The notes beneath the pieces are model-generated. The model had not been told where the DNA came from. It did not search any database and saw only the letters and a program-made list of their open reading frames with translations. The position numbers and the translations under genes were made by a program. Shown here piece after piece: positions 5,391-63,967 of a stretch of 64,000 nucleotides of DNA; position 1 is the stretch's first letter; each line of letters starts with the position of its first letter. The stretch comes from Pteria penguin (taxonomy: Eukaryota > Mollusca > Bivalvia > Pterioida > Pteriidae): contig CM068585.1 in NCBI GenBank assembly GCA_035048485.1, forward strand, positions 52,034,550 through 52,098,549, written 5' to 3'.

Positions 5391-6903
<1,513 letters not shown>

Positions 6904-24257: not shown

Positions 24258-25870
24258 GTTCCAAAATAGATTGTAGCAGAAACCAATTACTCTATCGCCA
24301 CTTCAACCAGCCTAATTACAATTATAGAAAAAATATATCATCGCAGAAACAATGCCAATTTGACCATTCCTTTTCGTCGGAAAAGAGAAGAATACTGGAT
24401 AAGACGTCTCGGCACTGTTTTCCCCATAGGATGCAATGAAAATATTAGTAGTATTGGTAACTTACCTAGTCCTTCGTATCAATCACTTAACGTACTCGTT
24501 TTATTCAACAAAAGCTAGAGGAGATATCGAAGTCATGGTACACGCAAATACAACAAACCTGAAATACATAATATTTCCTTTGATGCTCTTTTGTCATTTA
24601 TAAATAGATCTTTGCGCCTTCATCATATTCGTACAAAACTTTATTCTATTTCACTCAGAAAATTACACGAGTTGCACTTATCGTGCAGACACCGTATATT
24701 TACTGATATAAGCTCTGCAGAGTATAGATTAGATGGCATTATTATGGACAGATCGACCGCTAGACTTTTTTCGTCCCGTCAAGTCAGATATTTCTGTGGA
24801 AAAATCTAATCGCCCTTTCATCAAAATTAAATTTGCAAATAAAGGCATTGATTATTTAAATTTTGGCCAAATCTTAAATCATAAGTCTGTATTAGAGAAA
24901 ATACTTCCATATTTCAAAAACAAAAATCCGCCATGTATTTCCTATAGCTACACGCCATCAGTTGCATCCAAAATTTATAATTACAGTTTGAGTTTCTACA
25001 GTGTCTTGATCTTAGCAACTCTGCATGCAATCCTCAACCGTGTGCATGTTCCTCATCTAATTTTGTATATTCTCCTTGTGGCCATGTCATTACTGGTGAT
25101 CTCGATATTGTTAAAACACTAAATTAAGAGAATGTTTACTTAAAGGTCCAAAATACAGAGAACCCAGATCATTCACATGGAGCCAAAATTTTGATAATAT
25201 TATGAACTGCGAGGAATATGCCACACGATGGGCAAAAAGAGAGGAAGTACAGGTTGACACTCTTTCGGAATGGATAAAATCTATTGCAGTACTGCTGAGG
25301 TTAAAAATTTTAAAAATTACAAGGTTCTGTAAACACCAGATTCGAATCTATTTTTAAAGATCCTGATGTTGTCAGAGAACTTACCTTCCTCCAAGAACAT
25401 TATATCATTACACCAGCAGATAAAGCATCTAATAATTAAACATTTACTTGTAAGAAATATTACTTTGACAGCCTAATGAAAGAATTAGGATTAAATTCAA
25501 CTCCAGGAAATCCTACTTAACCTCTCACGAACTTTTCGGTTTCGGAAGTACTCGAGAATCATAAATCTGTCCTCAATACGTTTGGTATTTACTCAAATAA
25601 ATTAAATTTAGAACTTCCATATTTGTACTGCATTCCAAAAATGCACAAAAATCCTTACAAACAACGCTTTATCGCTTCTTCCGCGAAGTGTTCCACAAAA
25701 TCTGTATCGATGCTACTCACAAAAATATTATCAGAAATTAAATCTAGCCTTCATAGATATAGCGAAACAGTATATTCCAGAAGTGGAATTAATCAAATGT
25801 GGATCCTTAAAAATTCAAAAGAGTTGTTAGAACATCTAAAATCATCTAAAATCTAAAAAGATACATTCCG
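24258..25870 (+). mobile_element. Naiad-type PLE remnant (second lineage), plus strand
   Basis: Begins in the end of a GIY-YIG domain (LYRHFNQPN, then EEYWIRRLGTVFPIGC), followed by an RSHG region, FIKIKFANKGIDYL, the CxC linker PCACSSSNFVYSPCGHVITG (about 25030-25100), LLKGPKYREP, ITPADKAS, and the RT start YCIPKMHKNPYKQRFIASS and SRSGINQMWILKNSKELLEHL. Endonuclease before RT marks it as Naiad-like. Frameshifts and stops are common and the catalytic palm is missing after 25870, where a SINE fragment follows. Confidence 0.82.
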
Positions 25871-25892
25871 TACAAATACTGGCATTTTACCC

Positions 25893-31689: not shown

Positions 31690-32297
31690 CGCTATCAAAA
31701 ATACGCAAGGCAACGTCCGTAAGAGTAGCTCAGATCCTTGATCAATACGAGTCTCGACTAACAGTCAGAGGAGACAAGGATCAGGACCTTCTATCCTCTG
31801 AAAAAGTTTGGAAAAAGCCCGTCATAGAGTCCCTACCGCCCGTTTACTCAGCGTGCAACGCTAAAGCAATAGTATGCATTGGGTTGTAGAGGGACCCAAC
31901 ACAAAAACTAATATCTTAGCGCGATGATCTCAGGGTCATGCTGTCGGTGTCGGAGGCGTTTAATAATTTTAAAACCTGCCGATATAAAATCATTAAGACA
32001 TTTGGCCCTTCTTAGTTTGTACAGTAGATCGCCATAGAAATTGGGATGGAATGTTCCCCTGGATACGTGTTGTTTAAATGTCACATTTCGAAATTTAGAT
32101 AAAATGTCTGAATAAGATCTGTAAAATTTACTAAAGGTTTTTCGAGGTTTATATCTATAACCCTGAATAAGAAGTTTAAAAACACATTGAAAAAATTTAC
32201 CGTGAAAATCTAAAACATTTTTGCAGGCTCTAGCGAACGGAACCAATTGACATATATATTTAACAACGATGCCTCCTACACCACGCTTAACTCGCAA
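31690..32297 (-). mobile_element. Naiad 3' fragment with long C-terminal frame
   Basis: The open frame 32297-31908 matches the PLE C-terminal region: QLVPFARACKNVLDFH, LIQGYRYKPRKTFSKFYRS, FYGDLLYKLRR. A one-base shift near 31918 separates it from the final ...KRAVGTL-TGA. The 3' UTR follows with the TAGTCGAGACTCGTATT region shared with other copies. Diverged from the 48-53 kb copies, so probably an older or separate subfamily. Confidence 0.8.
31780..31825 (-). promoter_or_regulatory. Candidate SECIS element, Naiad copy 3 (diverged)
   Basis: ATGAC, then GGGCTTTTT pairing with AGAAGGTCC over nine pairs (G-U pairs included), unpaired CAAA, a weaker apical TTTTTCAGAGG, and TGAT closing the quartet. 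The helix differs from the other copies on both strands but still pairs. Confidence 0.72.
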
Positions 32298-33980: not shown

Positions 33981-36900
33981 CTATTGAAAAGGAAACGAAA
34001 ACAACGGACTTAACCGTATGATAAAAGTCAATATAGATATCAAAGTAAACAATGAAGATATAGAAAAACATAGCAAATATCAAATTGTAAATTGTAATGC
34101 ATTAGCGGCACTGACATTGGACGACCAACTGAAGTAACATTTGTTACTCATTTGGAGTGGATAAACATGAAATTATTGTAATCTCAGATAGGTAAACGCA
34201 TTCATCCCCTCATTATCAATTTTAGAACCACATTAATGAAAATCTGCCCTCTATTTCTCTCTCTCTCTCTATTACATGTACACAAACTTATACGCTGATT
34301 CATATACATTATTTTGAAATCTCAAACATTTGAAATACTTGAGGTCATGTTTTACTGTATTACATTTCATAATCGCAGTAAAACGTCCATCCTAAAGCGA
34401 GTTGAAATTGTCAGAATCCATTTACTACGTCAAGAGATTATGAACACAAAATGGTGTCATCGAAAACGTGGGACGAAATAAAATACAACGATGCATAAAA
34501 AGGCAGATTCTTCTTCTGAGGCATTTACCTTTTAATACGTATTACAAATACAGACAAACAAACTGACAGTAAGATTAACAGGAACACAACAGATCCTAAA
34601 ATGAAAATGCACATTTCTTAAATGTAAAGGCATGAACTAAATTAAATAAAATAACCTTCACAAAATATGAAAATGATAATCATTTGAGCCATAATCAGAG
34701 ATTTGATTTGTTGAAATAGAACCCCGATTAATATAAAAATATGCAAAAAGAAAATCATTCAACCAAACAAAATTATAACCTTAGAAAGATAACAGTATAT
34801 ATCATCTTATGTATTAGAACTTTTTGAGTTTAAACGTATTATTAAACATTTGATGCAAGAATGTTTAGTTTCAGGAATACTATTTTCTTTCAACAGTGTA
34901 CTCATATTAAGCGATGCATTGGAGTATTTACCACATACGATGAGTATAAGGGTAATCCCGTGATTACGATCTCTAGATGATGTAGATCCTATTTAAAAAA
35001 GAAAAAGAGATTTAGTAGTAAAAAAGAAAATCTTTGATTTGATCCAAAGAATCAACTTCTTTATGACATGTAAATCTGAACCTACCTTGTGGTGTTTCAA
35101 GGTCGTATCATGAGCTCTATCTTTGTTCATTACATCAATGTGTTTGCTTTTTCAAAAATTCTCTTTCTAATTTAAGTTTTGTAAATTTTTGAGAGACTGA
35201 ATCCTTTAGCATTGTTATTGGTTTGATAATAAAGCTACGATCCAATGTACACTCGTAAATAACGAATAGCGTAGAGTTCGATCAGCGATCCACAGAATCG
35301 TAACACAGTTATCCAGTAAATACATGTACAGTGTGAAACCGTTAAGAACTAATATATGGCTGTCTTTCTAGAACTACCGTTTACACCTTTTTGTACTAGA
35401 ACAATGTATAGAAAGGTATTTTGTCTGTTTATCATTATTGTTATTGAATTTCATTATTCTTACATCCTTATTCCAATATTTTCTCTGTCCTGGATTTATA
35501 GAATCACCACTGAACAAATGTTAAATTTCACTTCTCTCTGTCAACATTTCATTCTTCATGTAGAAGTTATTTGCATTACAATACACTGTAAAGCACTAAG
35601 AGTCATTCTCTGTAAACACCAAAGCAGGCCAAAAACCGGCAATACCACATTCTCATGAAATCCAAACATATGAAAGCTTTCTCATATTTTATCAAGAATT
35701 GAATCTATTTAATTTCGATTTCAACTTGTTTCCATAGTTACGGTTACCCCTTTGCATAAAACATACTTAAAAAAAACCAAAAAAATAAATAAAAAATAAA
35801 TCCTCCAAAAAAAAAAAAGAAAAAACAAAAAACAAAACAAAAAAAAAAAAACTCTCGTTATAAAAAGAAAGCGAAAGTAAGAAACCAAAACAAATTTAGC
35901 AGACATCTGGCATGCTTGGTCAATTTTAGAAGTTTTCAATGTTTCATTATATCATTAAAATATAATCGACCATGTCTTGTCAATTCCAATTAGAAAGGAG
36001 GGGATGTTCCATTAATTCATATTTCTACAACAATCATGGATATTTGGACATACAAGTAGCCACGTGTGAATAAGAGTTCTTTCTTTTCCCTCATATTCTC
36101 ATAAGTATCAAAATCATAAAATTTGTGCAGAATACCTAACTACTGAAAAGAAATAATGATTGATCACGACGATCTAACTGCCAATTACCCACTTTTATTT
36201 ATAGTTTTAGATGTTTTGCTTCACTTATATTTACCCACCGAATGTAGCCTGAGAATTAAAATCGACATATAGGGATCGCTTTGTCCTGTCTATAACATTA
36301 TAATTATATGTCATAAATTTACTAGACTTGCAGGGCAGATCAATCACATTCCATTTGAACATCTAACAGAAGTCTAGCTCATCTTCAATGTCCAGGTCGC
36401 ACATTTGGGGGTAAAACATATAACAGGCGGCATTTTGTATGTGAACACTCTCGTTTAAGCTCACTTGAGTTAAAAGTCACCAAGGCTAATACGAGCGGCG
36501 CAAAGCATTGTATAGTACGCCCATCACTTATACGGAAGTGAGAAACATAGGCATTTTGAAATTGACCTTGCAAATGATCTTGGAGAAATGTCCTGACACA
36601 CCATTTGGCTCTGCACAGCAATTCTGTGTTACATTATTCAAATTTATGGATGAATGAAAAAGTTATGATCTGGACAATAAAAAAACTGACACTGTAACCT
36701 TGACACGCCGTTTTTACCTCAAGACCATTTTTACAAAGAATGGTGTTAATCCAATCTCTACCAAGTATGATGTTAACCTAACACGGTATGTAAGAACTAT
36801 GACCCAGACACTGCGTTACAGACGGATGGACAGACATTGCTGTAACATGATATATTCTGTCAAACGATACGTGTAAAAATAGGTCTCAGGGTACTCCTCT

Positions 36901-39900
36901 TTGAAAATCTTATTCTTGGAAAGAACAAATTATCATAATAGAGTATAGGTCTGAATGTCTGCATAATTTTGAAAAAGCTGATTAAATATGGACAATTTTA
37001 TGAACTTCGAAATCTAGCCAAAATAACAATTACCCTCAAATCTAACAAATATGGAAAAAGAAAATTTTTCAAATGTAGAAATTTAAAGATTAACAAGAAT
37101 TGCATCAAATTTTACACAGATAAGACGTGGTAGTGGTAGAATTTTACGATTTTTCCCCATTTGTGCCCCTTATCCATGTTCCTGAACTAGCTTCTAATAA
37201 AGAAAAATATACTGATTTTAATATAAGCCTTCTGTAGGCTGACCTCTGTAAAAATGAAGAAAATCTGAAAAGGAACTTTGAACTATCCCAGATAGATATA
37301 TTCTTTGATTCTTACAGAGAATGGCTCTTTAAAAAGGTCATTTGACCAATGTGAAATGGAAACCGTTGCTTCTATACAATGTACATTGATGTTTCTTGAA
37401 GACAAGCATCTGATTGAAATGCTGAACCACTCCGTCAAAATATAAACAAATGCATTAAATCATTTTACACATGCATGAGATTTTTTTCACCTATTACAAA
37501 TTGATATGGGCGCCTTCGACTTGAATAGTACTTGGAAAAGGCGAAGAAAACATATATCAATTAATATCGACGGATAGAGAGAAAAAAAAAAACAACACTG
37601 CATTATGATCCAGACAGAAAATTTTTATTGCAGTTATAAGTCATCCTCAACCCCCTAGATCCTCAGATAATGGGGAAAACCCTCTGAGAAAACCAAAACT
37701 TTAAGCGAGTGGTCTGTAGAATTAGCAGTTGCCTTTAAATTATTTAAGTAAGTGGTCTGAAGTCATTGATCAATAACATTCACACCTTCTAAAAGCATTC
37801 AAATTCAATCGAAAACCCTTTATAAGGACTAAAAATTCTGGGTACCCCAAAAACACTCTTGTTTTGACAAGTATATTCTACTTCAATGCTTTAGTGATTA
37901 TCTGTTTATTTGGAGTGAGGTGAAACTATGGATGGATATGGATCAAAATAACATGTTTCTAATAAAATGAGAAAAGAGAGGGAAGTATTATCTTAATATA
38001 TGAGATATATTCGATTATATGTTTGTATTAATTTATTTCATATGTTTAAGTTTATCCTTTAAAGCTGTAACTATTTCAGTAAATCACATTCTCTAATGCC
38101 ACGAGGTTTTCTTCAAATCAGTTTGCTAGAACAGTTCTAAGGACATCAAAACTGAGTTACGTAAATAATATTACTGAGGCAATTTTTGCCAGAAGACAAT
38201 GCCTGTATATACTTCACATAACTAATCATAAACCTGCCAATTACAGTATGTTTAATTTTCATTTAAATTTTGTCAAAGCATGACAGGTTGAACAGCCTTG
38301 TCTAATCTAATACTTTATCAAGCAAATATCTTTGTTTGAAACAAGAAAGAATGCCAAAGTTGCAACAGTTTTAATAGGCACTATTTTAGCAGTCCAATAA
38401 AAGTACAATCGTTACCCAAATTGAGTGGTTATTCACGGGTCATCTTCCCATTTTTGATACATCACTTACGAGATGTGGAAATGTGAACAGTATATATGAA
38501 ATATGTGTATTAAATATTGTGGACAAGAAGCAATAGAGAATGAGATGCGGTCCTATAAAGAAAGGTGAAATTCTTAAAAATGATCTAAAATATTTTTTTT
38601 TGTCTGTTTTCTCTGTTTGTAGTGTAATTTAATTTCATTTTAATGCATATGATAGAGATTTCATCTACATGCTTCACTTGCCATTCAATGTCATTTGGAT
38701 TGTTTGTGATGTCTTGTACCGAGAAACCTCACTTGTATTACCACGATTCTCCACCGTGTGTGGAGATGAGTAATGCACAGTGGATACTGATTTGGTCCAA
38801 ACTGGAGTCATAAAACTAGACCTAAACAATGTTAAAAAGAGCATTATTGACAAATAAATCAATAATGTTGTGATACTAAATTGAATTTTAGCATTGTTCG
38901 TGACATTTTATTAGATTTAACTTTTGTTTTAAACAAAAAGGGAATATCATTAATTGATGTCTTGGTTACATTTATTTTGTTTCCGGTGTGTTACTTATAT
39001 ATACTTCATTACACTGTTTTTTTAAATGTTATGTAACGCGGATTCGTTATTGTTATTATTATTATTAGTAGTAGTAGTAGTAGTAGTATCTTGCTCACCA
39101 TTCAAAACTGATGTTCAGACACAAAGGATCTGAAACTGATACACAACAACAATATAGAAAAATGCAAAGTAACTCTGCATAATATTTCTCCTATCAGATA
39201 TCAAACTTTGCCTCATCAATTGGTCATTCTTGAATACTGAAACGTCATTGATTGATATGTGTACTCTTTTGCAAACAGTAAACCTGTAAATCATCGTAAT
39301 TGACAAAGTAATTGACATCTAACCCGATGGTAATGTCATTTTGCGTTAACAGCGACAATTGAAGTAGGAAGAAACACATTAAGTGCATATTAATTTATTA
39401 ATATTTTAAATTACTTGAAAGAAACAATGGGCATGCAGGTTATTATTACCTTTATTTACGGAGATATTGAATATTAAGATCTACTTTGAAATGGTAGTGA
39501 AAAAAAAAACATAACTATCCAAAAACGAGTTTGATGCTGATGCGCAAACCGTTTCATGAATATGTGTATTAAATGCAGTTCCTGTATATGAAGGGACATT
39601 CTTTTATTTATTTATTTAAGTATTTATGTGATTATTATTTGTCTTACATTTGTAAAGTTCATTGGTGACAAATCCCTGTAATGGACACCCCTCATAATTG
39701 CATTTCTGTTCAACAATATCCATATCACCAGTTATATCGAATAGTGGGCAATCTGCAAATATCAATGAAATACAAAGTACAGAATAAAAAGCAGTGCACA
39801 TGTTGAAGTAGAATGTAAAACTCACATGATTGATCATGATTAAATGTCTGGCATTAGAATTGCATCCATAAATATTAGAACATACATACGTGTTATGATC

Positions 39901-42999: not shown

Positions 43000-44760
43000 T
43001 TTGTTTTTGCATTAAAATGGCATAGTTCAAAGTAAGTCAAAAACGAATAAATATAATCATTCGGACAGGAATCCAAAACAGCAACACTTCCGCATACATC
43101 ATTCTATGTTATTTGTTGGTTTTACTTTGTATTAGCATGTGTTTTCTTAACTGCATATATTTACAATGAAATTATAGAAAACATCCATTGATGACAAAAA
43201 AGTAAAGAAAAGAAATAATCTGTACCTGGATATCAAAGAAATAAGTATTCCATCCTTCAAAAATCCGAAAATAAATAATCAGACTCGGCCAAATTTGTCC
43301 GACTCCCCCTCCCTTTACCCTTTCAGAATCAAAAGGCAGTCATCTAAGTTGTCTTACCTCAATAGAATGGAACCGAAAACACCGAAAGATTCGAAATAAT
43401 AAAATGTAGAAAGCAATGCTTGCTTTCAGAAAATATCCATGCATATATAGCTTCTGACCAGATGAAATCAGCACGTACCAGAATTGACTAAAGTTGTTCA
43501 AATAACGATCAGTTTACCATAAAATGTTTAGCAATATTCTGACGGCTTCGGTATTCAAACTTTTTTTCCGAATTTGTCTTTGCTATTATCAGGACACGTA
43601 TCGAACAGCATGTGTCCCCATACCTACGGTGTATAAACGAATCATTGACGTGTTTGTCGGTCGAAATTTGAGACATAGAAGTACTTTCAATTTAACATTA
43701 ATTCTATGAATAATATAATCAATATGTTATCCCCTATTTCATATTTCTTATTCAAAGTAAGACCTAACTGTTTGTGATCCGGCAACTGGAAGAACAGGTA
43801 TCTGAAAAAAAAAAAAAAACCATAATAAGGCTAGATGGGGTTTAGGCTTTCTTGAAATAGGTAGACAGCCGGTTTTGTTAGGAGTGAACTTGACGAACCA
43901 TTGATTCCATCACATATATACGTTTTGTAGATAGTGTTGTGGTACTGTAGTATCGGGGTATTTGCATTTAGCGGTTTCATCAGCAAACATTTATTTTTTC
44001 TTTTTTTTTTTTTTTTTTTTTTTTTGCATTTGATATCGTTGACAATATCATTAATAAATATTGAGAAGAGAGAATCTGGTTCTGATTCTTGGTATAAACG
44101 AACGCTGACTTCTACTATGTTGACTCTTCCCCGTTAATTTTAATTATTGTTCTTTTCAGAAAGATAACTTCCCTTCCTTTTAAATATGTTTCCATTATTA
44201 CCCATTTTTTATTTTGTGAACAAAAAAAACCGAACAAACAAAACATAAACAAACCCAACCTTTTATTTCATTTTCAGTCGAAAGCCTTACAGATACCGAT
44301 ACAATCACATCAAATTCCTTTTTCATCGTCCAGGGTTCCAGATAATTCCTGTTATATATACATGTAAATGTATATCAATAGTACAGTCACCTTCCTGAAA
44401 CTGCGACTGATCTTTGTTTAGAGGATTATTTAGAATTGTGGATATCTTTGATATACACATTATTCAAATATCTCAAGAGTAATATGAAGAGAAGTTGAGA
44501 TATAATTTTAAAAGTTTTGGGGGTACTCAAATAAACGCCTGGCAATACATTAGCTTGTTTTAATGGATATCTTTTTGTGCCATTGATACATTAAACAATA
44601 TACTCAGTAGACGTTCTTATGTCATCGCAACCTCCCTTCAGCAGTCTAGGGCTATATAAATCAGAACCTTCAGTTTTTGATCCATTAATAGTTTTAAGGA
44701 TGTTAATAGAAAGACCTTTATCCTTGTTTCTCGTTAAATTTGGATTTGATTAATTGATTA
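43000..44760. other. No gene recognised
   Basis: AT-rich; poly-A and poly-T runs at 43805 and 44000. The frames at 43524 and 43934 carry no motif. Confidence 0.4.
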
Positions 44761-44765
44761 TTATT

Positions 44766-45018
44766 TTACATGACTCCACGATTATTTCCCGTATATGGTG
44801 ACGGCAACTGCCTGATGCATTGCACACAAATTTAGACTTTTGCAACGGACTCACCTGAAGCAATGAGTGATCTTTTACGTGCCCCGACAATTGTTACACG
44901 GGACCTCAGTTTTTACTGTCCCAGCCGAAAGACAACACCGGTGTGCCCAGGGCGGGAATCGAACCAGGGACCTCCGTGTCACGAACCAAGCACCTTATCA
45001 AGAAGGCCACACCGGCTT
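44766..45018 (-). mobile_element. tRNA-derived SINE, same family as 11405
   Basis: The complement of the 11405 SINE: ACACCGGTGTGCCCAGGGC, CTCAGTTTTTACTGTC and ATTTCCCGTATATGGTGAC recur in reverse. A and B boxes recognisable but mutated. Confidence 0.85.
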
Positions 45019-45019
45019 A

Positions 45020-45815
45020 ATTTGGATTCGATGTGAGGGGGGGGGGAGGAACTGAGAAGCCCTCCCCCCTAAAAAAACCCCCAAAAACCAAAGGAAAAAA
45101 ATGAGAAGAAAAACAAAACAAACAAAAAAAGGAGGGGGAATTATTTAATTCAGCTTTTTCTTTGCCATCAGGCACGGCGCTCTAGTTATCTGAAAACATA
45201 GATTTAAGTATTTTTGTTATACTGAAAAACTTTGGTATTTGTTTTTACCAAATCCCACCACCCGCTAAGAAGAATAACAGTTTTGTTGCATAAACTTAAA
45301 AATCTAGACCAGTAATTAAACGACTTATCTTTCTTGTCTCTAGATCTCATTCTCCCTCTACTATTCATATTTCATGAATTTCAGTAGTTCTCTGGGGTAG
45401 ATATTTTTATGGTTATTAGGTTTTAACGCACATGTTTATATGCTATTTCAAGTGTTTGAGATGAAATGTTTCACACTATTATCAATACGGTCTGAAGGCA
45501 CTATTATTCTATTTCAATCAATTTCAGATAGGTCTCTTTCATACTTCTCGCAGTTGCCTTTGTCATATCACCGTGTTTTTCTTTTACATTCAGTATTAAT
45601 CATGCTACTGTAATTAGAGAGTGGTAGGGTATGTTGATTTCTAAGAAGAGTTCCATAGCCTCATTCTAATATAAAATATCCTCATTATTGGTCGGCTATT
45701 GATCAACAAATGTAGGTGAGTTTTCAGAATACGATAATGCTTTATGAGCTGGTGAAAATTATTACAGATATTTTTCATTTTGGTGACTTAACGAGTTTCT
45801 GTAAAATAGCTTGTA
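45020..45815. other. No gene recognised
   Basis: Follows a SINE; A-rich to 45135, then unremarkable AT-rich DNA. Confidence 0.4.
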
Positions 45816-47103: not shown

Positions 47104-48432
47104 ATCTTGTATCCAGTGCTTGTTCAGTAGATAGCACGTTCAGTTAGGTTCTATAAATCACGGTTAGGAGGTATGTAAATAGTCACATTAAGTTGTTGCC
47201 TTTTATTAGTAGTTGCGTCTGTCCAAGTACATTTTAAGCCATAAGGTTTCAAGGTCACAACGGCGTTTAAAATTTCACACAGGTTTACCTTACACCCCCA
47301 TACAGGACGTTTCATATTTGGGGGGGGGGGGTTATCGGGTGGGTGGGGGTTGTATAGTGAATTTAAACTTTCTGGTAAAGTATCCTCGTGTTCAGTATTT
47401 TGATTGACTGCTTTCAGTGAAACAAAGAATATTACATACTTGTAAGTTGTAAGTTGTATATCAATTTTGCATGTAAAGCTGCATTTAGAAATTTGATACA
47501 AAAAATGTGCTCGTGTAGGGTAATGTAATGAAACTTTGTATAAGAAATATTTATATCCTCAAAAAAGAGTCCAGGCAACCCAACAATAATACCAAACAAT
47601 GAAATGTAAGAAAATATATATGACTCGTATCAAAGCACATCGATTTGACACAGTAAACATTCATACCTATTTATACATATACATGCATATGACAATTCTA
47701 TCGTGATAGAATGATGAGTGCAATTTTAATCATGCAGATATATATATATATATATGAAAACAGCGTTTGTACAAAATATGAAAAAGGGAAGAAAATAGGG
47801 AAGGAGAAGATAGGAGATACGACCTCCCATGAGGATAAATTCAGTTAATTGACATGGAATTTAGATAAATTGGCATAGTTGTATTTATATATTGTGTAGC
47901 ATTGGATGTGAACTAAAACATTACTGTCGGCACATGTCGAATTCTGTCTGATTAGTTTGTTATTCTCGTGATTGAAAGAAAAAAGAGGAGTTACTGGCTC
48001 AGTTATGTGGCAGTAGTCACAATGGAGCTATACAATACATGAATATATATAATATACTAGAACATATAACACATTACAAAAATATTTGATTGTAGTGCAA
48101 TTACGATACCGACTTAGGACGGTCATTTAATTTGACAAAAGCCAAACAAATGGTGTGGTTTACGGGCCCACCTCCCCACTCACCGTAACAGCAGAACAAT
48201 CAAAGGACGTACATTAAAAAATTTATAAACAATCCTCCATGTAAAGAACAAGGGTCAACAGGTATCGCATATTGAGAGGTCATCAAAATATAAACACGTA
48301 AGGTATTGTAAAACACATAATGGTATAAAAATATATGCGACATCAACATGATAAACCGTGCTCTGCCAGTCTAAAAGCGAGCTAAGACCCTAGATCTTTA
48401 GGAGTCCCCACTAACAGTCAGAGGGGACGAGG

Positions 48433-48480
48433 TTCAGGACCATGTCTCCTCTGAAAGAGGTTTGGACAAAGGCCGTCATA
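48433..48480 (-). promoter_or_regulatory. Candidate SECIS element, Naiad copy 1
   Basis: Minus strand: ATGAC, a helix of about 10 bp with mismatches (GGCCTTTGTC against GACATGGTCC), an unpaired CAAA on the 5' side, a mini-hairpin CCTCT-TTC-AGAGG, then TGAA. This matches the form-2 SECIS layout: UGA/GA quartet, helix, AA platform, extra small stem. SECIS elements direct selenocysteine insertion at UGA in eukaryotes. The UGA of the core is in frame as the ORF's stop. Confidence 0.7.
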
Positions 48481-51400
48481 TAGTCCCCACCGCCCTGTTA
48501 GTCAGCGTGCAACGTTCAAGTAAAAGTCTGCATAAGGCCGTGGAGGGGCCAAATACAAAACCTATAGTCTTTTTGATGATCTAAATATGATATTGTCTAT
48601 TTAGAAGACGTTTGACTATTTTATTACATGATAAAATAACGTTATCGGAGCCTTTTACTTTCCTTAGTGTATATACGAGAAATTCCATTGGATACATACT
48701 GTTGAAAAGAAATATTTTCAAATTTAGATAGAAGTTCTGAATAAGATCTGAAGAATTTGCCGAATGTTTTTCTTAGCTTGTGATATCTGTAACCCTGAGT
48801 TAAAAGTTTAGTGGTTATTTTTAAATTCCGTTTACGAAAGTCCAAAACATCGGTGCAGCCTCTGACAAATCGAACTAATTGAGATATATAGATACCAAAT
48901 GATGGGAGTCGAGGGACATCGCCATCTAAGTAAGGGAAATTTACAATAGGAAATCTAAAATCCTCACGTTTATCATAAGTATTAGTATATATTAGGTGGT
49001 TGATAATTTTGATGTTTAAATCTAAGAAAGGTGTAGATTTATCTCAAGTATTAGCTTTATTCAATGTGAGATCTGGTGGATATATTTCTGATATAAATTG
49101 TCCAAATTCAGGGTTGTCGATAACCAAAATGTCATCCAGATATCTGCAAGTATTACTAAATTTGTCAATGAGGTCAAAACGTTTTGATTTTTGAATAGAA
49201 ACCATAAAATTCCAACTATTTGTTGATGTATCTTGCCATCAAATTGCACAAAAATATTATTCATGAGAAAATCTAGTGCTTTACATAATTCCTTGCAAGT
49301 CCAGTATTTTAATGAATTATATTGTTTGTTGGAAAAGAATCCGGAGTTATTGGAAGTACATATGTACGTTTTAGATTCTCTGTGAAAACACCATTGTATA
49401 AGAGACAGCAACTTGCTTTTAATCAAATTATGAGGCAGAGATGTATAAAGTGTAGAAAAATCAAATGTAGAAATTTGAGTCGCTTTGAAATTTAGCGAAA
49501 GAAGTTTGTCTATAACTTCATGAGAATTTTTAATCGACCAAAAGTAATTGATGTTACTATTATGAAATGCGACATCACAATATTTGATAATATGATCTTT
49601 TATAGCAGTTAGAGCAGACGTAATATGCTTCGATAGTATTGTAGTAGAACAGTGGCTAGGATTAGATATGAAACGTGATTTATATGGACTTTTATGTAGT
49701 TTTGGGAGCCAATATATGGTTGATAGATCAGATTTATCAGTTTTAATTTTGAAGTCGGACATGGTCATGAGGTGATCGTGCAAGGTGCTGTCTCTTGATT
49801 AAGGGCTTTCAACATACGTATGAGTGGAGTTTAATTCGTTTTTAAGTACTTCAATATAATATAGTTTTCAAACAACTATTATGTATTATGGTATTACCTG
49901 CTTTATCAGCAGGAAGAAAGACATATTTAGCATGTAAGTCAGCTATCCTCTTTTTATTAGAATTTGCCGTCAATGTATTAGGCTGTTGAAATAAATGCGG
50001 ATTTTCCGTAAAGTTCTTAATACGGATATCGACAATTCTTAAAATATCGTATTTCCAATCATTAAGAGCATGAACCTTTACCTGTTCTTTTTTACACCAA
50101 CGTTTACAATATGTAGTTAAAGCATCTTCTATAACGTCACGGCATTTATTGAAATCTATCCTGGATGGTAACCTATATTTAGGTCCTTTTCAAAAAAAGT
50201 GTGCGCAATTTCTTGTTCGAAATAGAGTTTAGGTCACCAGTAATAACATGACCTGCCGGTTTATAAACATATTTAGAATTTACACAAGAACACGACAAAG
50301 GAATAGAGTCTGACACATCAGGGTTAGATGGGACTTTATTATAATTTAAAATAAGATTTCTTATGGGCTTTTTGTACTGGTAACAAATAAGTGGAGGTTC
50401 TAAATTCTCAAAATATTGGGGGATTTTAGATGTGACTCTATGATCACGGAAAATATTAGAAATGTTAAGTAGGTCGAAGCCTTTATTTATAAATTTAATT
50501 CTGAGAAATTGCTGCTTGGATGGAAGAGACGGAATACGAGGAAAGTGTTTATTATATGAAAATAAAATAATCAAATTGAGTTTATATCAATCAGAATTGC
50601 GTAAACTTAGAAGATCAGCTTCGTCTAGGATAGGTTTCAATTTATTTACCGGAATAGAGGATAGTGCATGCAAAAGTTCGTGACGGCCATTATTTTTTGC
50701 GATAAATAGAAGATCGTTTAATGACCTATTTAAACGATTACGTTTTCTTATGTTTCGATTACGGCGACGACCATGTGACCTACGTTTTCTAATAGTTTTA
50801 TGTCTTAATGTAAAAATATTAATCTTATTCTGACGAGAAGAAATACTACCTTGTCGATATATTTGGTCGTTGAGACCGAGAGGGTATGTAGTTGTTTAAT
50901 CTAGTAGAGCTCGGTTTCCAAAAGTCGTTTTTTAACATCTGATTTCGTATCACCTGGTAATTTAGAGATATTTTCTACTGGAGTTATTTTCACATTGTTA
51001 ATATTATGTTGGTATTTATTAAAGTGGTTATAAAGAAAATTCTGAATTATTACGAATTTTATAGGAATGATTCCGAAAACGTTATTTCAAAGTTTGAGAA
51101 GTTTCCCCGACATATTGAGCCCCACATCCTCTAGCTTCTCAAGTGATGACATATATAACATTGGCAGTATTTCAATCTATGTCTTTGTCTAATTTGGTGT
51201 TAAATGTATTTCCATTAACCGAAGATTCAATATTGGACTTGCAGCTTAAATGATGGGAAGTAAGACATTTCTTGGCGTTGCACTTATTAATCTTAGAATA
51301 CCCTCTGCGTATAGAATTGGCAGTTCTGTAAGAATTTATAGGTGTGAATGTTTTTGAAAATGAGATAGAACGTTTAATAGGGAAACTGCTTTTAAGTGGA

Positions 51401-51591
51401 GAAATATGAACTTTAGTGGTGCCAAATAATTTTCTACAAGAAATACCAGGTATATGAAGAGTGGACACAGAGGGCAATCTAAGTGGTGTGATTATAACTT
51501 TAGGAGATTTGTATTTTAATTTTATTATATTTGAAGCCATTTTAATGAAAAGGGGGGATAAGGATGTACAAACCCAGGGGAAAGCCTCCAC
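48476..51591 (-). pseudogene. Naiad polyprotein remnant (GIY-YIG endonuclease + reverse transcriptase) with in-frame TGA codons
   Basis: Open stretches: 51591-51172 (N-terminal part), 50574-50179 (linker with CSC), 49783-49061 (RT fingers and palm) and 48845-48642 (C-terminal region); the C-terminal frame resumes near 48655 and ends ...NRAVGTI-TGA. In the endonuclease, TGA at 51172-51174 and at 51139-51141 flank NTANVIYVIT, where PLE relatives carry Cys. A third in-frame TGA is at 50587-50589. The enzyme family primes reverse transcription at a nick made by the GIY-YIG nuclease. The TGAs may encode selenocysteine; the TAA, TAG and frameshifts are ordinary decay. Confidence 0.82.
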
Positions 51592-52184: not shown

Positions 52185-53035
52185 AAAAGAAAAAAGAGGA
52201 GTTACCGGCTCAGTTATGTGGCAGAAGTCACCATGGAGCTATACAATACATGAATATAAATAATATAATAGAACATTTAACACATTACAAAAATATTTGA
52301 TTGTAGTGCAATTACGATACCGACTTGGGACGGTCATTTAATTTGACAAAAGCCAAACAAATGGTGTGGTTAACCGGTTTACGGGCCCACCTTCCCACTC
52401 ACCGTAACAGCAGAACAATCAAAAGACGTACATTTAAAAATTTATAAATAATCCTCCATGTAAAGAACAAGGGTCAACAGGTATCGCATATTGAGAGGTC
52501 ATAAAAAAAATATAAACACGTAAGGTATTGTAAAAACATAATGGTATAAAAATATATGCGACATCAACATGATAAACCGTGCTCTGCCAGTCTGAAAGCG
52601 AGCTAAGACCCTAGATCTGTAGGAGTCCCGACTAACAGTCAGAGGGGACGAGGTTCAGGACCATGTCTCCTCTGAAAGAGGTTTGGACAAGGCCCGTCAT
52701 ATAGTCCCCACCGCCCTGTTAGTCAGCGTGCAACGTTCAAGTAAAAGTCTGCATAAGGCTGTAGAGGGGCCAAATACAAGACCTATAGTCTTTTTGATGA
52801 TCTCAATATCATATTGTCTATTTAGGAGACGTTTGACTATTTTATTACATGATAAAATAACGTTATCGGAGCCTTTTACTTTCCTTAGTTTATATACGAG
52901 ATCACCGTAAAAATTAGGATGGGAAATTCCATTGGATACATACTGTTGAAAAGAAATATTTCCAAATTTAGATAGAAGTTCTGAATAAGATTCTTAGCTT
53001 GTGATATCTGTAACCCTGAGTTAATAACATTTCTC
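52185..53035 (-). mobile_element. Naiad 3' fragment in tandem with the main copy
   Basis: Collinear with 47977-48850: the C-terminal coding region (...GSDNVILSCNKIVKRLL... to AVGTI-TGA), then the 3' UTR and the CTCCTCTTTTTTC end. It is 5'-truncated and has an internal deletion near 52990. Same strand as, and about 500 bp upstream of, the 5' end of the larger element, the head-to-tail partial tandem common in PLEs. It keeps a segment (FYGDLVYKLRK) lost from the larger copy. Confidence 0.82.
52654..52700 (-). promoter_or_regulatory. Candidate SECIS element, Naiad copy 4
   Basis: ATGAC, then GGGCC-T-TGTC pairing with GACA-T-GGTCC, unpaired CAAA, mini-hairpin CCTCT-TTC-AGAGG, and closing TGAA. 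It pairs better than the copy at 48433. The core UGA is again the stop codon after RAVGTI. Confidence 0.72.
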
Positions 53036-55900: not shown

Positions 55901-56565
55901 TTTTATTGAGGTTTTTGATGGTGACGCATTATATACGCAATACTTCTACTGAGACTGCAGAAATTTCTCGGCGACAGATTAAAATCGAAGATATAGCTAA
56001 TATTGCTTTAAGAGAGCACAACGTTTCTTGTCGTAGGTCAAGATTCTGACAGAAATTTCTTCTGTATGTAAGGGCATTAATGGCGGATGTGGCTAGTCAC
56101 GCTTACTCCTCCCGGTCACTTTGTACTACCTCTGAATTTCTAGGGTCGGTAAATGTCGGCGGTGGTACAGTGTTAGTGTCAAAGTCACTTGACACCAGTT
56201 ACTTTAATACTTTGCCTAACATATGATTATTTTTTGGTTGACCTTATCGCCGTCAGTGTCTTGCAATCTGAAGTGCTTGGTTAATTTTATACCTCACCTT
56301 GACATTTCAGAAATGTAAACTCAAAATTCAGTTTGACACGTGTCTTATTTCAGGAGAGTGAAATTTTGTAGTTAAATTTGCCAGGAATGTATACTCATCT
56401 TGCATATTTCATTACATGGTTTTTCACATTTGTCTACTACCAAACCTAAAATCAGTCTCAAAAAAACACTTGACCAATGAGAGGTTGTCATTTTTATTTA
56501 TAACTGAAAGTTCACACAATATTTCTGACTTACGTCAGGTATGTTCCCTTAAATTTATTTTTCTG

Positions 56566-59500
56566 TTACAAAATAATAATTCGATTTGATTCCAGATGAT
56601 TGTATGGTCCATTTTCATCAATTTCCCATCTGTTTTCAACATTGTATTGATATTCATGCGCCACTATGTTAACATCATGGATTTCCTCATATGCACTTTC
56701 GATTTCTTCCATGTACATCGAATGTGATTGAGTTACGTTTTCAGCTATTGCTTTTTCGCAACACTCCATTTCATCTCTATTTAAAAGAAAACAACATTCG
56801 ATTCAAACGTACAGTTAGGTGCAGTCCTAACCTTATATAAAGTGCACTTCAATTTAACGGTATGACTGCTTTTCAAGTTTACTTGGCGACGACAGAGTAA
56901 CCTTGGAATCAAGTGTAGTAGTAAACTTGATTCCAAGTTTAGCACTAAACTTGATTCCAAGTTTACTTTACTTTCTATATACATGTACATTTACTATATT
57001 AAAACAATGGGTTTTTTATATAAAATATGCAATTGTACATAATAAGACAATTATTTCTATCGTGTTATACGAAACTGGATAATTGTAATAAACAAACGTG
57101 AAAAGTAAACTGGGTGTCACGTGATAGTAAACTTGAAGACGGAATTACTTTAAAGTAAACTTGATATCAAGTGTACTAGACTAAACCTTATGACTTGTTT
57201 TCAGGATGAAAAGCTAAACTTGAAGTGTATTTGTCAAGTGCACTTGAATGTAAGGTTAGGATTGCACCCAACTGTATGCTAAAGATCATCATCGACAAAA
57301 ATGCAAACAATCAAGACATTGAAAAGACAAGTAAAACTCAAAGAGTAATGCAATTGAGGCACTGCCATGGGACGGTCTGTTGAATTAACATTTGTTACAA
57401 GTTGGTGTAGTTAAACATGAAATCAATGTAATCTCATATAAGTAAGAGTATTCTCGTCCCATTTATGAAAATCTGCTCACTCACTCCCTCTCTCCCTCTC
57501 TCTCTCTCTCTCTCTTTCTCTCTCCCTCTCTCTCTCTCTGAAATGTATTGATAAACCAATTAATTCGTCGACTGCATATGCTTTCAGATTTGTACTACTG
57601 TTTAAGAATTTAATGTTTATTACTTCAGCATTCTGTGCTTGCTAACCCCCCCCCCCTCCCTTTCAGTAGTGTACAGTCGTTCCCTACTCTACTGTCAAAT
57701 GCCAGTTTGTAACTGAACGCTGAATCATATACATTATTTTGAAATCTCAAACATTTGAAATACAATAGAGTTCATGTTGTACTGTATTTCCTATCTTTCT
57801 ATAAAAATGTCCATCCCGAAACGAATGTAATTTGTCAGAATCCCCTCACTACGTCAAGATAATATGAACACAAAAAAGTGTCAGCGAAAAAGTGGGGCGT
57901 AACTAGGTACAGCGATGCAGAAAAAGGCGATTCTTCTGCCGTGGTATTTACCTTTTAGTATGTATTACAAATGCAAATAAACAAACTGTCAGTAAGATTA
58001 GCAGGAACACAACGGATCCTAAAATGAAAATGCAACAAAAGTAATGGTATGAACTAAATCAAATAGAATTACTTTCACAAGATAATTATCATAAAACTCT
58101 TAATATGAGATTTGATTTGTTGAAATAGAAACCATATTAACGATATGCAAAGAAAAAAATTAAACAACCAAACAAAAGTAAAACCTAAGAGAGATAAGAG
58201 CATATTTCATATTATTTATTAAAACTTTGATTGAGTTTAAAAGTAATAATAAACCCTTGATGCAACTTTCTTTCGACAGTGTACTGATATTTTTACTGCA
58301 TCATTAAACGATGTGTTAAAGTATTTACCACATAGGATGAGTATAAGGGTAATCCCGTGATTACGATCTCTAGATGATGTAGATCCTGCTAAAAATAGAA
58401 AAGAGATGTAGTAGTAACATAGCATATCCTTCATTGTTAAATCTGAACCTAACATAGAGTGTTTTAAGATCGTATCATGAGCTCTAACTATGTTCCATAC
58501 ATCTTTTTATTTTCCTTTTCAAAAAGTCTGTTTCCAATTTAAGTAAAAAATCAAGTTTTGAGAGACTTAATTGGTACGTGTTGTTATTGGTCATAAGTCT
58601 TAATTTATCCGTATAAAGTTTTGTTAATCAAGCTACGATTATACGAACACTCGTTTATTACGAATAATGTAAAGTTCGATCAGCGATCCCCAGAAACGTA
58701 ACACATATATCCAGTAATTACAAGTGTGAAAGATGTTAAGAAGTAATGATTAAATACCTGTCCAGAATTACAGTTTACACCTTATAGGATATTGTCCAGA
58801 AAGTTAAGGACGCAGTCTGGTGAGCTATTTAGGCCGAAATGTAATCTGCCTAACGGGAAGTAACGGGATGATGTGACGTTTTCAGTCGTGATAGAAAATG
58901 CAATAGTAATATTCCATAATTTTTCTATTACGCATGTGTTTGTAAATTATCATTTAAAGTTGAAGAAAACAGTTTTTAGAGGTATTCTTTTAACAAAAAC
59001 TTGTTTTACGACATACCCGTTTCCGTAGCTCTAACAATCGACGACGGTGATTTTACCATAAAAGCATAAGATAGGCAACTAATACCGAAGGCCGGTCTAT
59101 TTAATCATCTTGAAACAATCAAAACTAAATTTAATGATCATAAGAGCGTTTTTATTTTTAACCTTTAAAGTGCTAATGATTTTGAAAGGAGCCGCAGATT
59201 TACGTCATGCAGCAGATGATGACGTCACTGTGACGTTACGTAGTGACCTGACGCCGTCGCACCTGCTACCAATATATTCGCTATGTGGAAAAGTATGGTA
59301 TCTTTGAGCCGTTATATCTCAGGACTCATGGAAGCATGATTTACAGATCATTAAAAAGAAGACATTTTAAACTTTTAAATAATAATATTACGATATTGTT
59401 ACTGACATTTTCATTGAAGCAGTTATATATGTACTATAAAGCCAAATTCTTCAAAGAAATATATGTAATTTTTTTCCAAGTAGCCTCCATCTTCCTAAAG

Positions 59501-62500
59501 GGAGGGGGGATTAATGTGTTTATACATTTTGATTATATCAAATCTAAATATAATTTGATTTGAAATGTCATTTGAAGCTTGTATAGATACAAATCAATCC
59601 CTTTCTTGATCACCAAAAGGAAATATTTCATTCAGTATATATTACACACAAAATAAATGAGACAGCAACAAAATGGGGAAGGGTGTAATATCTAGCAAAT
59701 TTCTTTGTACAGTGCCCCATTACCTATTATAATTTCATGTTGTTTCGACTTATAACAGACCACTGCACATTACAATGTAATATCACAATGATGTAGATTT
59801 TAGAAATTATCAAATAAGTGTATTTCTTGTGAAATTGTCATCATTTTAGTAGGTTTGTTTAATTACTATAGCCACTCTGAAAGGCTCCATTAATTGTCAG
59901 AGCCTTACCTAATCCTTGTTGTTTTTCAATCAATTAATATAAATACATACTTGTGAAAAAAAAAATCAACTGCTCTAAAATGATATTTCTGTATATAAAT
60001 GGGTATGACACAGTATTAATTTGCATTGATTCTAGCACAATAATTTGCTCCATTACATGATACTTTTTTTTATTATTTAATCTATCTCTGCCTGTTCTTA
60101 TAGAATATGCATAAAATAGCCAGTGGTAAATTTTAATTCTTAATAGCTCGCCAGACTAGCCTCTTAAATTCATTTCACTTTTCTCTCTATCACTATTTCA
60201 TTTCTGCTCTTCATGTAGAAGTTACCCAAAGTATTTGCTTTTGAATACAATGTAAATCATTAAGAGTAATTCTCTGTAAACATAAAAAAGGGTCAAAAAC
60301 GGCAATTCCAGATTCTCGTGACATCTAAACAAATGAAAGATTTCCCATATTTCATTTAGAATTAAATGTATTTAATTTTGATTTTGTTTCCATGGTTACG
60401 ACCCTCTACATAAATACTATTTGCAAAAACATACTTAAATCAACACGGCTTTTCAATAACTTATAATGTACTGTATGAAGATAAAAATAAGTGTGAAATG
60501 TTTCATTCTGATATAAATGTGTCGTTTTGTCAAATATTTTTGTTATATTCGTATTTCAGCATAAAAATTAACATATAAAATATATCAGATCTACAGAGTT
60601 TGTACTCCTAGTATTCAATTATGCAGGGTTATATGATATAAACGATAATTAAAACTTACAAAAGCGACATCTTACTAATATTATATACAAAAAGAGGAGT
60701 TGACATTTTGACATAAAAAACGAATATTAAAAAGTAAATAACATTAAAAAATAAAAAGAAAAGAAACTCTCTTTACCAAAAGAAAGTGAAAGTAAGAAAC
60801 CAAAACAATTCAGCAGACATTTGGGATGCTTGGTCAAATTAAGAAAGAAAAAAGAGGAGTTATTGGCTCAGTTATGTGGCAGAAGTCACCATGGAGCTGT
60901 ACAATACATGAATATAAATAATATACTAGAACATATAACACATTACAAAAATATTTGATTGTAGTGCAATTACCATACCGACTTAGGACGGTCATTTAAT
61001 TTGACAAAAGCCAAACAAATGGTGTGGTTAACCGGTGTACGGGCCCACCTTCCCACTCACCGTAACAGCAGAACATTCAAAGGACGTACATTTAAAAATT
61101 TATAAATAATCCTCCATGTAAAGAACAAGGGTCAACAGGTATCGCATATTGGGAAGTCATAAAAATATAAACACGCAAGGTATTGTAAAACATATAACGG
61201 TATAAAAATATATGCGACATCAACAGGATAAACCGTGCTCTGCCAGTCTGAAAGCGAGCTAAGACCCTAGATCTGTAGGAGTCCCGACTAACAGTCAGAG
61301 GGGACGAGGTTCAGGACCATGTCTCCTCTGAAAGAGGAATTAAGAAATTAAGAAATGTTTAATGTTTTATTATATCAGTAAAGTATAATCGACTATGTCA
61401 TGTCAATTCCAATAGAAAGGGAGGGGGATCTATCCCATTCAGATTTCTTTAAAAACTATGAATACTTGGAATTGCAGGTAACCATTTCTGAATAAGAGTA
61501 TGAAAATCATAAAATTTGTGCAGAATACTTTACTCCTAAAATGAAGAAATGATTGAAAACGACGATTCAACTGCCACTTGCCCACTTTTAAAGTCGACAT
61601 CCAGGAACGAAAAAAAAAGATTAAATAGATTAAAAGTTTTGCTATCCGAGAAATTCCATGGTATGCTATCCATATTCATACCAGTAGAAAATATAAGCTT
61701 TTATTTCTTCGTAAAAGAAAATACATGAAATCTTATTTTTAGTGATTATGTATTTTATAATTACTCTTGAATTTGAATATGAGATGTTGATGTAATTTCT
61801 TTGGTCATATTTTGTTAACAAAATAAGTTTGGTTAAACGGTTTTTAAATCGTATTAATCACACATGCACTAAACCTAAAGGTAGATTGATCTTTATTAAA
61901 AATACAAAAATTTATGTTGGATTGAATTGAATTTGAGGGTAAAAGTAAAATTTATATTTAAATGCAAGGTACATGTCATCTTCGATGTCCAGGTCATACA
62001 TTTAGGGTAAAACATATAACAAGCGGCATTATGATTGTGAACAATCTGGTTGAGGCTCTCTTGAGCTGAGATACATTTGGTGCCACCAAGAGGGTAACAA
62101 GAGCTGCGCGTAACATTGCATATTGCGCCCATCACTTAAACTGAAGTGAGAATCATAGAATCATAAGCATTTTGAACTTGACCTTGCAAATGATCTTGGA
62201 GAAATGTCTCGACACACCATTTGGCTCTGCACAACAATCCTGTGATACCTTATTGAAATCTATGCGTGAATAAAATGTTATAATCTCTACAGTAATTTAT
62301 CTGACACTATAATATTGATCTTGCAAATATGACCTTGGGACAAGGTCTTGACACACTGCCTTTACCCACAGACCATTTCTACCAAGTATGATGTTAATCT
62401 AACAAGGTATGAAATAACTATGCATCCGACAATGTGTTACGGACATACGTACATATATCGCTGTATCATGATACGTCCTGTGAAACGACACGTGTTAAGA

Positions 62501-63660
62501 TATATATCACAGATATATCACTCTTTCAAAATCTTATTCTAAGGAAGAAAAAAAAATCATAATATAGTATAGGTCTGAGTGTCTGCATACTGCTGCAGAG
62601 GCTGATTAAATATGGGTAATTTTATGAACTTAGGAATTTAACCAAAACAACACTCAGTTACCATCAGATCTAAGAAATATAAACTAAGAAATCTTTCAAG
62701 TGTAGAAATTTCAGGATTCTGTTTAAAATTGCATCAAATATTCCAATGATAATATGATATTAACAGTAGTATTTTCGTTTTTTTTTTCTCTGTATTTGTC
62801 CCCTTATCCATGTTCCTCAACTAGCTACTATAAAATTGGGTGCATTTCTTGCCAGAAGACAATCCTTGTATAAACTTCATGTAATTAATCATAAACCTGC
62901 GAATCACTGTATATGCTTGTCTTCTATAGTTAATTTTCATTGAAATCATGACAGGTTGAAAAGTCATCTCAAATCCATTTTGTTATCCTTCTTTTAACAA
63001 AGAAAAAGAGTGCCAAGGCTGTAACAGTTTAAATGGGCACCATGTTATAAGCATTTAAATGAAAAAAATAATTCATATTTACATTATGCGTAATAACGGG
63101 TAAAAAGACATCTAACAGCTGTACCAAAAAAAAAAAAACCCACCAAATATACGCGCAGCAAACAAGCATAAAAACACGATTGTAAAGCCGTTGCATTTCC
63201 GGTTTGGACAGTCCATTAAAGTGAGAATCGTCACCTAAATACTGTGGCTATTCGATATATGGATCATCTTCCTAGTTTTTTTATACATCACTCACGAGAT
63301 GTGGAAATGTGAATAGTATCGAAATATGAATATTAAAAATATTGGACAAGAACCACCAGAGAATGTGATGCGGTCCCACAAGAAAATAGAGAATTTTTTT
63401 AAATTGATCTAAAATAATTCTGTCTGTTTTCTATATTTGTTACCTAAATTAGTTGCAGTGCAAATTAACTTCATTTTAATGCAAATGACAGAGATATCAT
63501 GTCCATGCTTCACTTGCCATTCAACGTCATTCGAGTTGCGTGTGATGTACTGTACACAGAGGTCTCGCTAATATCACCAGAATATTCCACTGTGAATATC
63601 GAAGATGAGTAATGCACGGTGAACGCTGATTTGGACCCTATTGGAGTCATAGAACTAGAC
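56566..63660 (-). CDS. Gene 3: paralogue of gene 2 (duplication copy B), 5' part beyond the window
   Basis: Minus-strand exons: 63660-63518 (stalk, GC donor), 58385-58329 and 58018-57952 (membrane helix), 56776-56566 (tail, TAA). Lengths are 143, 57, 67 and 211 bp against 140, 57, 67 and 211 in gene 2, with the same phases and no stops. Landmarks: SSSMTPIGSK, RDRNHGITLILILC, VVFLLILLTVC, MYMEEIESAYEEIHD, PYNHLESNR. Ectodomain exons should lie to the right of 64000. Introns carry later insertions: a TIR element at 56812-57274, a TTAA element at 58808-60163 and a Naiad fragment at 60846-61337. Open frames in both copies suggest two functional genes. An AATAAA lies just past the stop (56494-56499). 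Confidence 0.68.
56812..57274. mobile_element. Non-autonomous TIR element B (463 bp), same ends, different interior
   Basis: Ends CAGTTAGGTGCAGTCCTAAC and (complement) CAGTTGGGTGCAATCCTAAC with TA target. Subterminal repeats are AAGTGCACTT and AAACTTGATTCCAAGTTTA instead of GTTAACGCG. The corresponding site in copy A (around 34018, CCGTATGA) is empty, which defines the TA duplication. Confidence 0.82.
57478..57540. repeat. CT microsatellite in the gene 3 intron
   Basis: Imperfect CT tract; a much shorter CT run sits at the paralogous spot near 34255. Confidence 0.88.
58808..60163. mobile_element. TTAA-flanked TIR element, about 1.36 kb
   Basis: TTAA at 58804-58807 and 60164-60167. Imperfect terminal inverted repeats: AGTCTGGTGAGCTATTTAG on the left and AGTCTGGCGAGCTATTAAG on the complement of the right. 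Right flank TTAAATT...CACTT matches copy A around 35520, where this element is absent. No transposase seen. TTAA targets are used by piggyBac and Kolobok; the ends do not start CCC, so Kolobok-like is more likely. Confidence 0.66.
60846..61337 (-). mobile_element. 5'-truncated Naiad insertion (492 bp) with target duplication
   Basis: Carries only the Naiad 3' UTR, starting inside the SECIS apical stem (CCTCTTTCAGAGG) and running to the CTCCTCTTTTTTC end. Flanked by AATTAAGAA at 60837-60845 and 61338-61346. Copy A of the duplication has the corresponding unoccupied site near 35920, so the insertion postdates the duplication. Confidence 0.85.
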
Positions 63661-63897
63661 CTAATTAATGTTAAATAGAGCATTATTGACATGTAAGAAA
63701 TCAATAATTTTTTTTTTTTTTTTATATATATAAATTACCGTTGTTCATGTCATTTTTCCAATTAGAAATAAATGTGATTAAAAATAGAAAAAGGAAATAT
63801 CATGAATTGTTGTCTTGATAACATTGATTGTTTCAGGTGTGTTATTTACATATACTTCATTATATTGATTTTTAAAATGTTATGTAACTCGAATTGG

Positions 63898-63899
63898 TT

Positions 63900-63967
<68 letters not shown>

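Follow-up and report, generated by a model that had tools for sequence, protein, structure and literature searches.

To our knowledge, selenoproteins encoded by mobile elements are very rare; the usual animal protein with many selenocysteine (Sec) residues is selenoprotein P, the product of a host gene in which several UGA codons are served by a SECIS lying in the 3′ UTR. Naiad elements, a type of Penelope-like retrotransposon, are marked by an N-terminal endonuclease (EN), a CxC linker, a telomerase-like reverse transcriptase (RT), pseudo-LTRs and the lack of a hammerhead ribozyme, and Craig, Yushenova, Rodriguez and Arkhipova reportedly described selenoprotein-encoding Naiads from clams and spiders in Mol Biol Evol in 2021. 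Here we analyze a 64,000-nucleotide stretch of the genome of the bivalve Pteria penguin (the window) that holds an element of this kind. The locus is like the reported Naiads in its permuted EN-CxC-RT order, its pseudo-LTRs and its several predicted selenocysteines in one protein; a stop codon embedded in the SECIS and two Sec sites outside conserved Cys positions, which we predict here, may or may not be described in that report. It is like selenoprotein P in that several UGAs would be served by one 3′ SECIS, and differs from it in being a retrotransposon whose stop codon likely lies inside the SECIS. Telomerase reverse transcriptase (6zd6, 6zdq), with 10-14% identity, is not known to have a GIY-YIG domain or Sec. 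Also close are the Cys-type relatives, comprising a second Naiad-like element of the window (Table 1) and most of the proteins P0010-P0064: they belong to the same protein family and carry GIY-YIG ahead of RT where covered, but at the UGA columns of our element they have Cys, as predicted in the sources of these proteins.

The literature search, which covered titles and the beginnings of abstracts, returned no paper on selenoproteins of Penelope-like elements and no description of a SECIS-embedded stop or of non-Cys Sec sites; a reference entry for Craig et al. 2021 stands in PMC11167929. Selenoprotein Naiads having reportedly been published, the core of our finding is a new, strongly supported case of a known but rare kind, and the use of a SECIS-core UGA as stop codon, together with two predicted Sec codons at non-Cys positions, is possibly new.

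Table 1. Features of the element, its relatives and their SECIS hairpins in the 64-kb window (positions from the first letter of the window)
Feature	Position	Strand	Remarks
Family-A ORF, decayed	48476..51540	-	GIY-YIG endonuclease N-terminal, CxC linker, telomerase-like RT; 29-copy alignment
UGA codon 123, predicted Sec	51172..51174	-	TGA 29/29; first conserved Cys of GIY-YIG region
UGA codon 134, predicted Sec	51139..51141	-	TGA 29/29; second conserved Cys
UGA codon 325, predicted Sec	50587..50589	-	TGA 28/29; no conserved Cys here
UGA codon 562, predicted Sec	49868..49870	-	TGA 26/29; near-universal Cys before RT core
UGA codon 858, predicted Sec	49044..49046	-	TGA 25/27; mostly Ser/Thr in relatives
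UGA codon 1069, SECIS core 3′ side	48434..48436	-	TGA 25/25; in frame in family A
SECIS, window copy, weakened	48424..48487	-	Rfam SECIS_1 30.5 bits, below gathering
SECIS, upstream copy	52645..52708	-	36.6 bits, above gathering; MFE -35.5 kcal/mol, z -2.57
SECIS, family B	31771..31833	-	33.7 bits, below gathering
3′ pseudo-LTR-like repeat	47975..48803	-	90% to 52186-53024; takes in C-terminal codons and SECIS
Tandem copy/pseudo-LTR upstream, 5′-truncated	52186..53027	-	From about codon 938 to end
Third family-A 3′-end fragment	60844..61337	-	96% to 52186-52681; cut inside SECIS
Family-B C-terminal RT fragment	31825..32258	-	59-61% protein identity to family A
Decayed Naiad-like element, Cys type	24387..25844	+	Cys at codon-562 position; comparator within same window

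The element, at positions 48433-51591 of the window (minus strand), belongs to a large family (family A) and has decayed. With all five of the Naiad features named above found at the locus, it is most probably a Naiad-type Penelope-like retrotransposon. The stretch VIY..YVG at codons 128-147 aligns with the relatives and places GIY-YIG N-terminal to RT within one ORF. Pfam assigns to the relative P0013 a GIY-YIG domain at residues 32-122 (27.1 bits, cut-off 22.6) and an RVT_1 match at 620-755 that stays under its cut-off (18.3 bits against 29.6); there was no Pfam match for the query ORF itself, and none over cut-off in seven ORF pieces of the window. The CxC linker corresponds to codons 424 and 426, which are C in 59/62 and 60/62 of the relatives covering them. 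An AlphaFold model of an open copy reached a mean pLDDT of 84.7, and the best PDB matches in a fold search with it were telomerases (6zd6, 6zdq and others), mainly over residues 395-983. Partial tandem copies or pseudo-LTRs flank the element (Table 1), and the Rfam matches found in the window include no hammerhead ribozyme, whether at gathering or at E-values up to 10.

The window holds other repeats. Copies of a repeat with a tRNA-like head, 80-92% identical, stand at 11389-11680 (+), 25889-26050 (-) and 44745-45034 (-), the first with an Rfam tRNA match of 40.2 bits at 11407-11479; the repeat looks like a tRNA-derived SINE. Stretches of 33296-39089 recur collinearly in 56099-63940 at 72-84% identity, a pattern that would fit either an ancient segmental duplication or one large repeat, and a 147-base unit is repeated in tandem three times at 383-835. 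Another Penelope-like GIY-YIG element is present as an open ORF at 5856-6281 (+) with Cys at both positions corresponding to codons 123 and 134. Sec and Cys types of the Naiad-like element stand side by side in this one window.

Copies of the element were collected from the 838-Mb, 49-contig assembly, in which 40 scored of 4,471 first-look candidates yielded 69 matching stretches. Thirty loci were taken, with the window copy as L001, and the other 29 copies, some of them partial, were aligned. Their majority frame starts at the ATG at 51540 and comprises 1054 codons followed by UGA, with no codon column up to 1054 in which TAA or TAG is in the majority. A reading made earlier from the window's letters alone (the sequence-only reading) had proposed that two in-frame TGA codons, 11 codons apart, stand at Cys positions of the endonuclease. 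Both are where it put them (51174-51172 and 51141-51139, minus strand), in the same frame and with the flanks it described, and they are not chance, since each is TGA in all 29 other copies. The number was too low: the ORF contains five TGA columns (codons 123, 134, 325, 562 and 858), in which TGA fills 137 of 143 cells. The six remaining cells are TGG (twice), TCA, TAA, TTA and one gap. TGA, and neither TAA (one cell) nor TAG (none), thus dominates these columns, as the sequence-only reading had anticipated for a consensus of genomic copies, and TGC or TGT, which in a consensus with TGA confined to scattered decayed copies would have spoken the other way, occurs in 0 of the 143 cells. Stops are sparse in all other columns up to codon 1054 (33 in 28,859 cells: 18 TAA, 11 TAG, 4 TGA), the densest being codon 672 with TAG in 3/29. 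Where covered, L004 and L005 (full-length) and L006 and L018 (partial) are free of further stops and of indels, and the sole defect of L007 and L030 is a 9-base deletion.

Searches of the genome with two protein relatives gave similar tallies, which are biased towards intact copies because only top scorers were counted (the best of 51,482 candidates for P0002 and of 10,692 for P0008). The 48 scored matches of P0002 contain 203 TGA, 13 TAA and 2 TAG in frame, 36 of them having TGA only; the 73 scored matches of P0008, which represents the N-terminal half, contain 295 TGA, 24 TAA and 7 TAG, with TGA alone in 49. Exactly four TGA were counted in 64/73 P0008 matches, as codons 123, 134, 325 and 562 would predict.

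The window copy itself is dead. Read in the majority register it carries TAA twice, TAG twice and an additional TGA, besides six indels (-14, -7, +1, +7, -64 and -23 relative to the copy majority), among them the frameshifts claimed earlier. The TAA singled out by the sequence-only reading, at 51084-51082, is private to this copy, the other 29 having CAA (27), GAA (1) or a gap (1). The private TAA, the other stops and the indels bear out the proposal that this copy has decayed since a selenoprotein-encoding ancestor.

Equivalence of the UGA codons with Cys was assessed on an alignment of 71 protein relatives, with counts at each site restricted to those covering it. Relatives have C in 26/27 cases at codon 123 and in 27/28 at codon 134, with a single W at each, and the Cys comparator named by the sequence-only reading, at 5856-6281 (+), reads MTCKSVNVICIICSGC. 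Codon 562 is C in 59/67, W in seven and D in one; the W residues belong to P0002, P0003, P0006-P0009 and the distant P0069, and in the close relatives W probably represents TGA translated by code 4. The placement of TGA at Cys positions, as originally proposed, therefore holds for codons 123 and 134, extends to codon 562 and fails for codons 325 and 858, which are not Cys-conserved. At codon 858 the residues are S (26), T (13) and C (5) of 68. At codon 325 the multiple alignment gives C in 0/25; relatives of at least 65% identity have W in 22/23 and E in one, and pairwise alignment gives C in three relatives below 40% identity. Trp was set aside as the ancestral residue of codon 325, the distant alignment being unsure by two residues. 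Not all five UGAs replace Cys, since Ser or Thr predominates at codon 858 and no Cys column exists at codon 325. W, probably UGA, also occurs at the first Cys of the CxC linker in P0008 and P0009, a Sec site that family A does not use, and W was found there in 20/137 pairwise-aligned relatives.

A protein search with codons 326-561 provides a separate view of codon 562. Among the 120 listed relatives (126 in all), 40 stop precisely at residue 561, and the next commonest end is shared by two only; the length range admitted by the search (0.55-1.75 times that of the query) favours fragments, but it does not favour an end at 561 in particular. These 40 relatives are about 43-73% identical to the query and known from protein sequences alone. 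Where aligned stretches of the same search run over codon 562, they have W (14) or C (3). A protein search with codons 1-122 found no relatives, and no relative was confirmed on viral contigs.

The sequence-only reading had further proposed that the element ends in a SECIS hairpin. Rfam SECIS_1, with a gathering score of 35 bits, has three matches in the window, all on the minus strand and at the 3′ ends of Penelope-like fragments (Table 1), and the hairpin of the decayed copy is identified as a SECIS by its own match and by that of the closely similar upstream copy. The proposed check of 3′ ends against a SECIS model gave matches at or above gathering in 12/20 family-A loci (13 matches, with L022-L030 left out of the counts) and in 10/17 loci of a second family, family B. 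A rescan of seven family-A loci at a laxer threshold, leaving out L016, added L004, L007, L010 and L014 at 30.8-34.7 bits and found no SECIS match in L002, L006 and L017; L051, a family-A locus added later, scored 36.6 bits. In family B a SECIS was found in 15 of the 17 scanned loci (L034-L050), the best at 46.2 bits. Folding z-scores of five SECIS were modest (-1.25, -2.57, -0.01, -2.57 and -1.93), and RNA folding alone is weak evidence for a SECIS here.

The AUGA quartet of the hairpin, at 48479-48476 on the minus strand, contains the UGA of codon 1055, which is TGA in 24/25 copies. No stop column precedes the SECIS in the ORF, and the first strand of the SECIS overlaps the last codons. Codon 1055 coincides with the quartet UGA in 17/17 family-A and 14/15 family-B loci, all of them picked for having a SECIS match and many frame-shifted upstream. 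The family-B SECIS is one base shorter than that of family A, and since the frames past the SECIS consequently differ between the families, the protein most likely ends at codon 1054. The stop codon is thus likely the UGA of the SECIS AUGA quartet.

Family B comprises the window fragment at 31.8-32.3 kb and loci L031-L050, whose DNA is 69-74% identical to family A over the matches. Codon 562 reads TGA, TAA and TTT in its three readable copies (the L047 row of these readings is a family-A insertion and was not counted), and a UGA 562 common to both families is accordingly known from a single decayed family-B copy. At codon 858 family B has Ser in most copies and Cys twice, and the copies taken are decayed or rearranged at the N-terminus, where codons 123 and 134 are unreadable. 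Between families A and B we obtained dN 0.193 and dS 1.226 over codons 525-1054, that is, a dN/dS of about 0.16, from a pool of 24 stretches, each of 90 columns or more and 60-85% identical (stop cells removed; 3,758 codon pairs), that takes in related, partly overlapping and decayed copies. It is difficult to see how purifying selection could act downstream of the UGAs unless these are translated through.

The host appears equipped for such translation. The assembly has two tRNA-Sec matches at 77.8 and 77.3 bits (cut-off 47), three just over the cut-off and eight under it; the same model matched in 14/14 control genomes, exceeding the cut-off in five, for which reason only the two 77-bit matches are leaned on. 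SepSecS is represented by seven collinear matches on one stretch of contig C4, and because 3/14 control genomes, Bacillus subtilis among them, also gave SepSecS matches, it is the collinear order of the seven that counts. A genome-wide SECIS_1 search listed 85 matches, all over the cut-off (the best of 28,938 candidates, with 150 scored). Twenty were sampled down this list, and all 20 proved to be the element's SECIS with at least one flank probe, 18 of them also matching its coding end.

Taken together, these data make it highly probable that the locus holds a degraded Naiad-type element whose single 1054-residue protein is a selenoprotein, with five UGAs read as Sec and a stop at the UGA of the SECIS, and the sequence-only reading of a decayed copy of a selenoprotein-encoding Naiad is supported by the dominance of TGA and by the SECIS in both families. 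Sec insertion and the place of the translation stop are both inferred from sequence. In the mechanism that we propose, host tRNA-Sec would be recruited via the SECIS at the end of the ORF, the five in-frame UGAs would be decoded as Sec, three of these would replace conserved Cys (a pair within the endonuclease Cys cluster, the third immediately ahead of the RT core), and the ribosome would stop at the UGA inside the AUGA quartet. The exchange of Sec and Cys at three sites suggests that Sec takes the role of Cys at these positions, possibly by binding metal or in redox reactions.

Several other explanations deserve weighing. The TGAs could be nonsense mutations carried by a dead master that an intact relative amplified in trans, an account that fits their being common to the copies, as if one mutated master had spread, the decay of many copies and the sharing of UGA 562 with family B in one copy only. 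We nevertheless judge it very improbable: all five stops are TGA, which from codon make-up has a chance of about 0.25^5 if they arose as independent single changes, three of them fall on near-universal Cys, the SECIS is conserved in two families and translated in frame in four relatives, the dN/dS between families is low, and 40 of the 120 listed relatives stop at the same codon. Conservation of the SECIS bears equally on the idea that near-cognate tRNAs read through the UGAs, or that only truncated proteins are made, with no Sec inserted. Some room for this idea is left by codons 325 and 858, where a Cys-like residue is not required, and by the Sec reading coming from sequence and not from protein, but matches at or above gathering in both families, the Cys equivalence at three sites and the presence of host Sec genes make it hardly credible. 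A host nuclear code with UGA as Cys or Trp would likewise produce the replacement of Cys by UGA at three sites. Under such a code, however, the SECIS would be useless, and tRNA-Sec is present; the lack of TGC and TGT at the five columns stands against the 26 other Cys codons of one open copy, all TGC or TGT, and the chance that this explanation is right appears negligible.

A further alternative concerns the stop alone. A UGA in the immediate vicinity of a SECIS is not known to be decoded, which argues against the codon-1055 UGA being also read as Sec, with the protein continuing into the repeat; so do the differing frames of the two families beyond the SECIS. Such continuation would agree with the lack of any TAA or TAG column ahead of codon 1055, and the frame of one family-A copy closes only with a TAA near codon 1142, UGA 1069 lying in frame before it. 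Four relatives (P0002, P0003, P0006 and P0007) run through codon 1055 in frame as GTIW and on into the SECIS translation. According to a review (PMC8704476), a eukaryotic SECIS may lead to the recoding of any UGA in frame. This would allow UGA to arise at non-Cys sites such as 325 and 858, and it counts to some degree against a stop at codon 1055. On balance we consider a protein extended in this way unlikely, and retain termination at codon 1055.

If a selenoprotein is indeed encoded, several consequences follow. Read by the standard code, the gene passes for a pseudogene, which makes it a trap for annotation, and copies of the element's SECIS can flood searches for selenoproteins, as seen in the 20/20 sampled of the 85 listed. 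A SECIS-embedded stop also makes testable how close to a SECIS a UGA can still terminate. We favour, with modest confidence, a reading in which one and the same UGA would end translation and build the signal that recodes five others, with gains of UGA becoming tolerable at codons 325 and 858 and a ratchet towards selenium dependence, the element's SECIS being the one met in all 20 sampled cases. Should five Sec insertions truly be needed for each protein, the mobility of the element would be tied to the selenium supply of its host.
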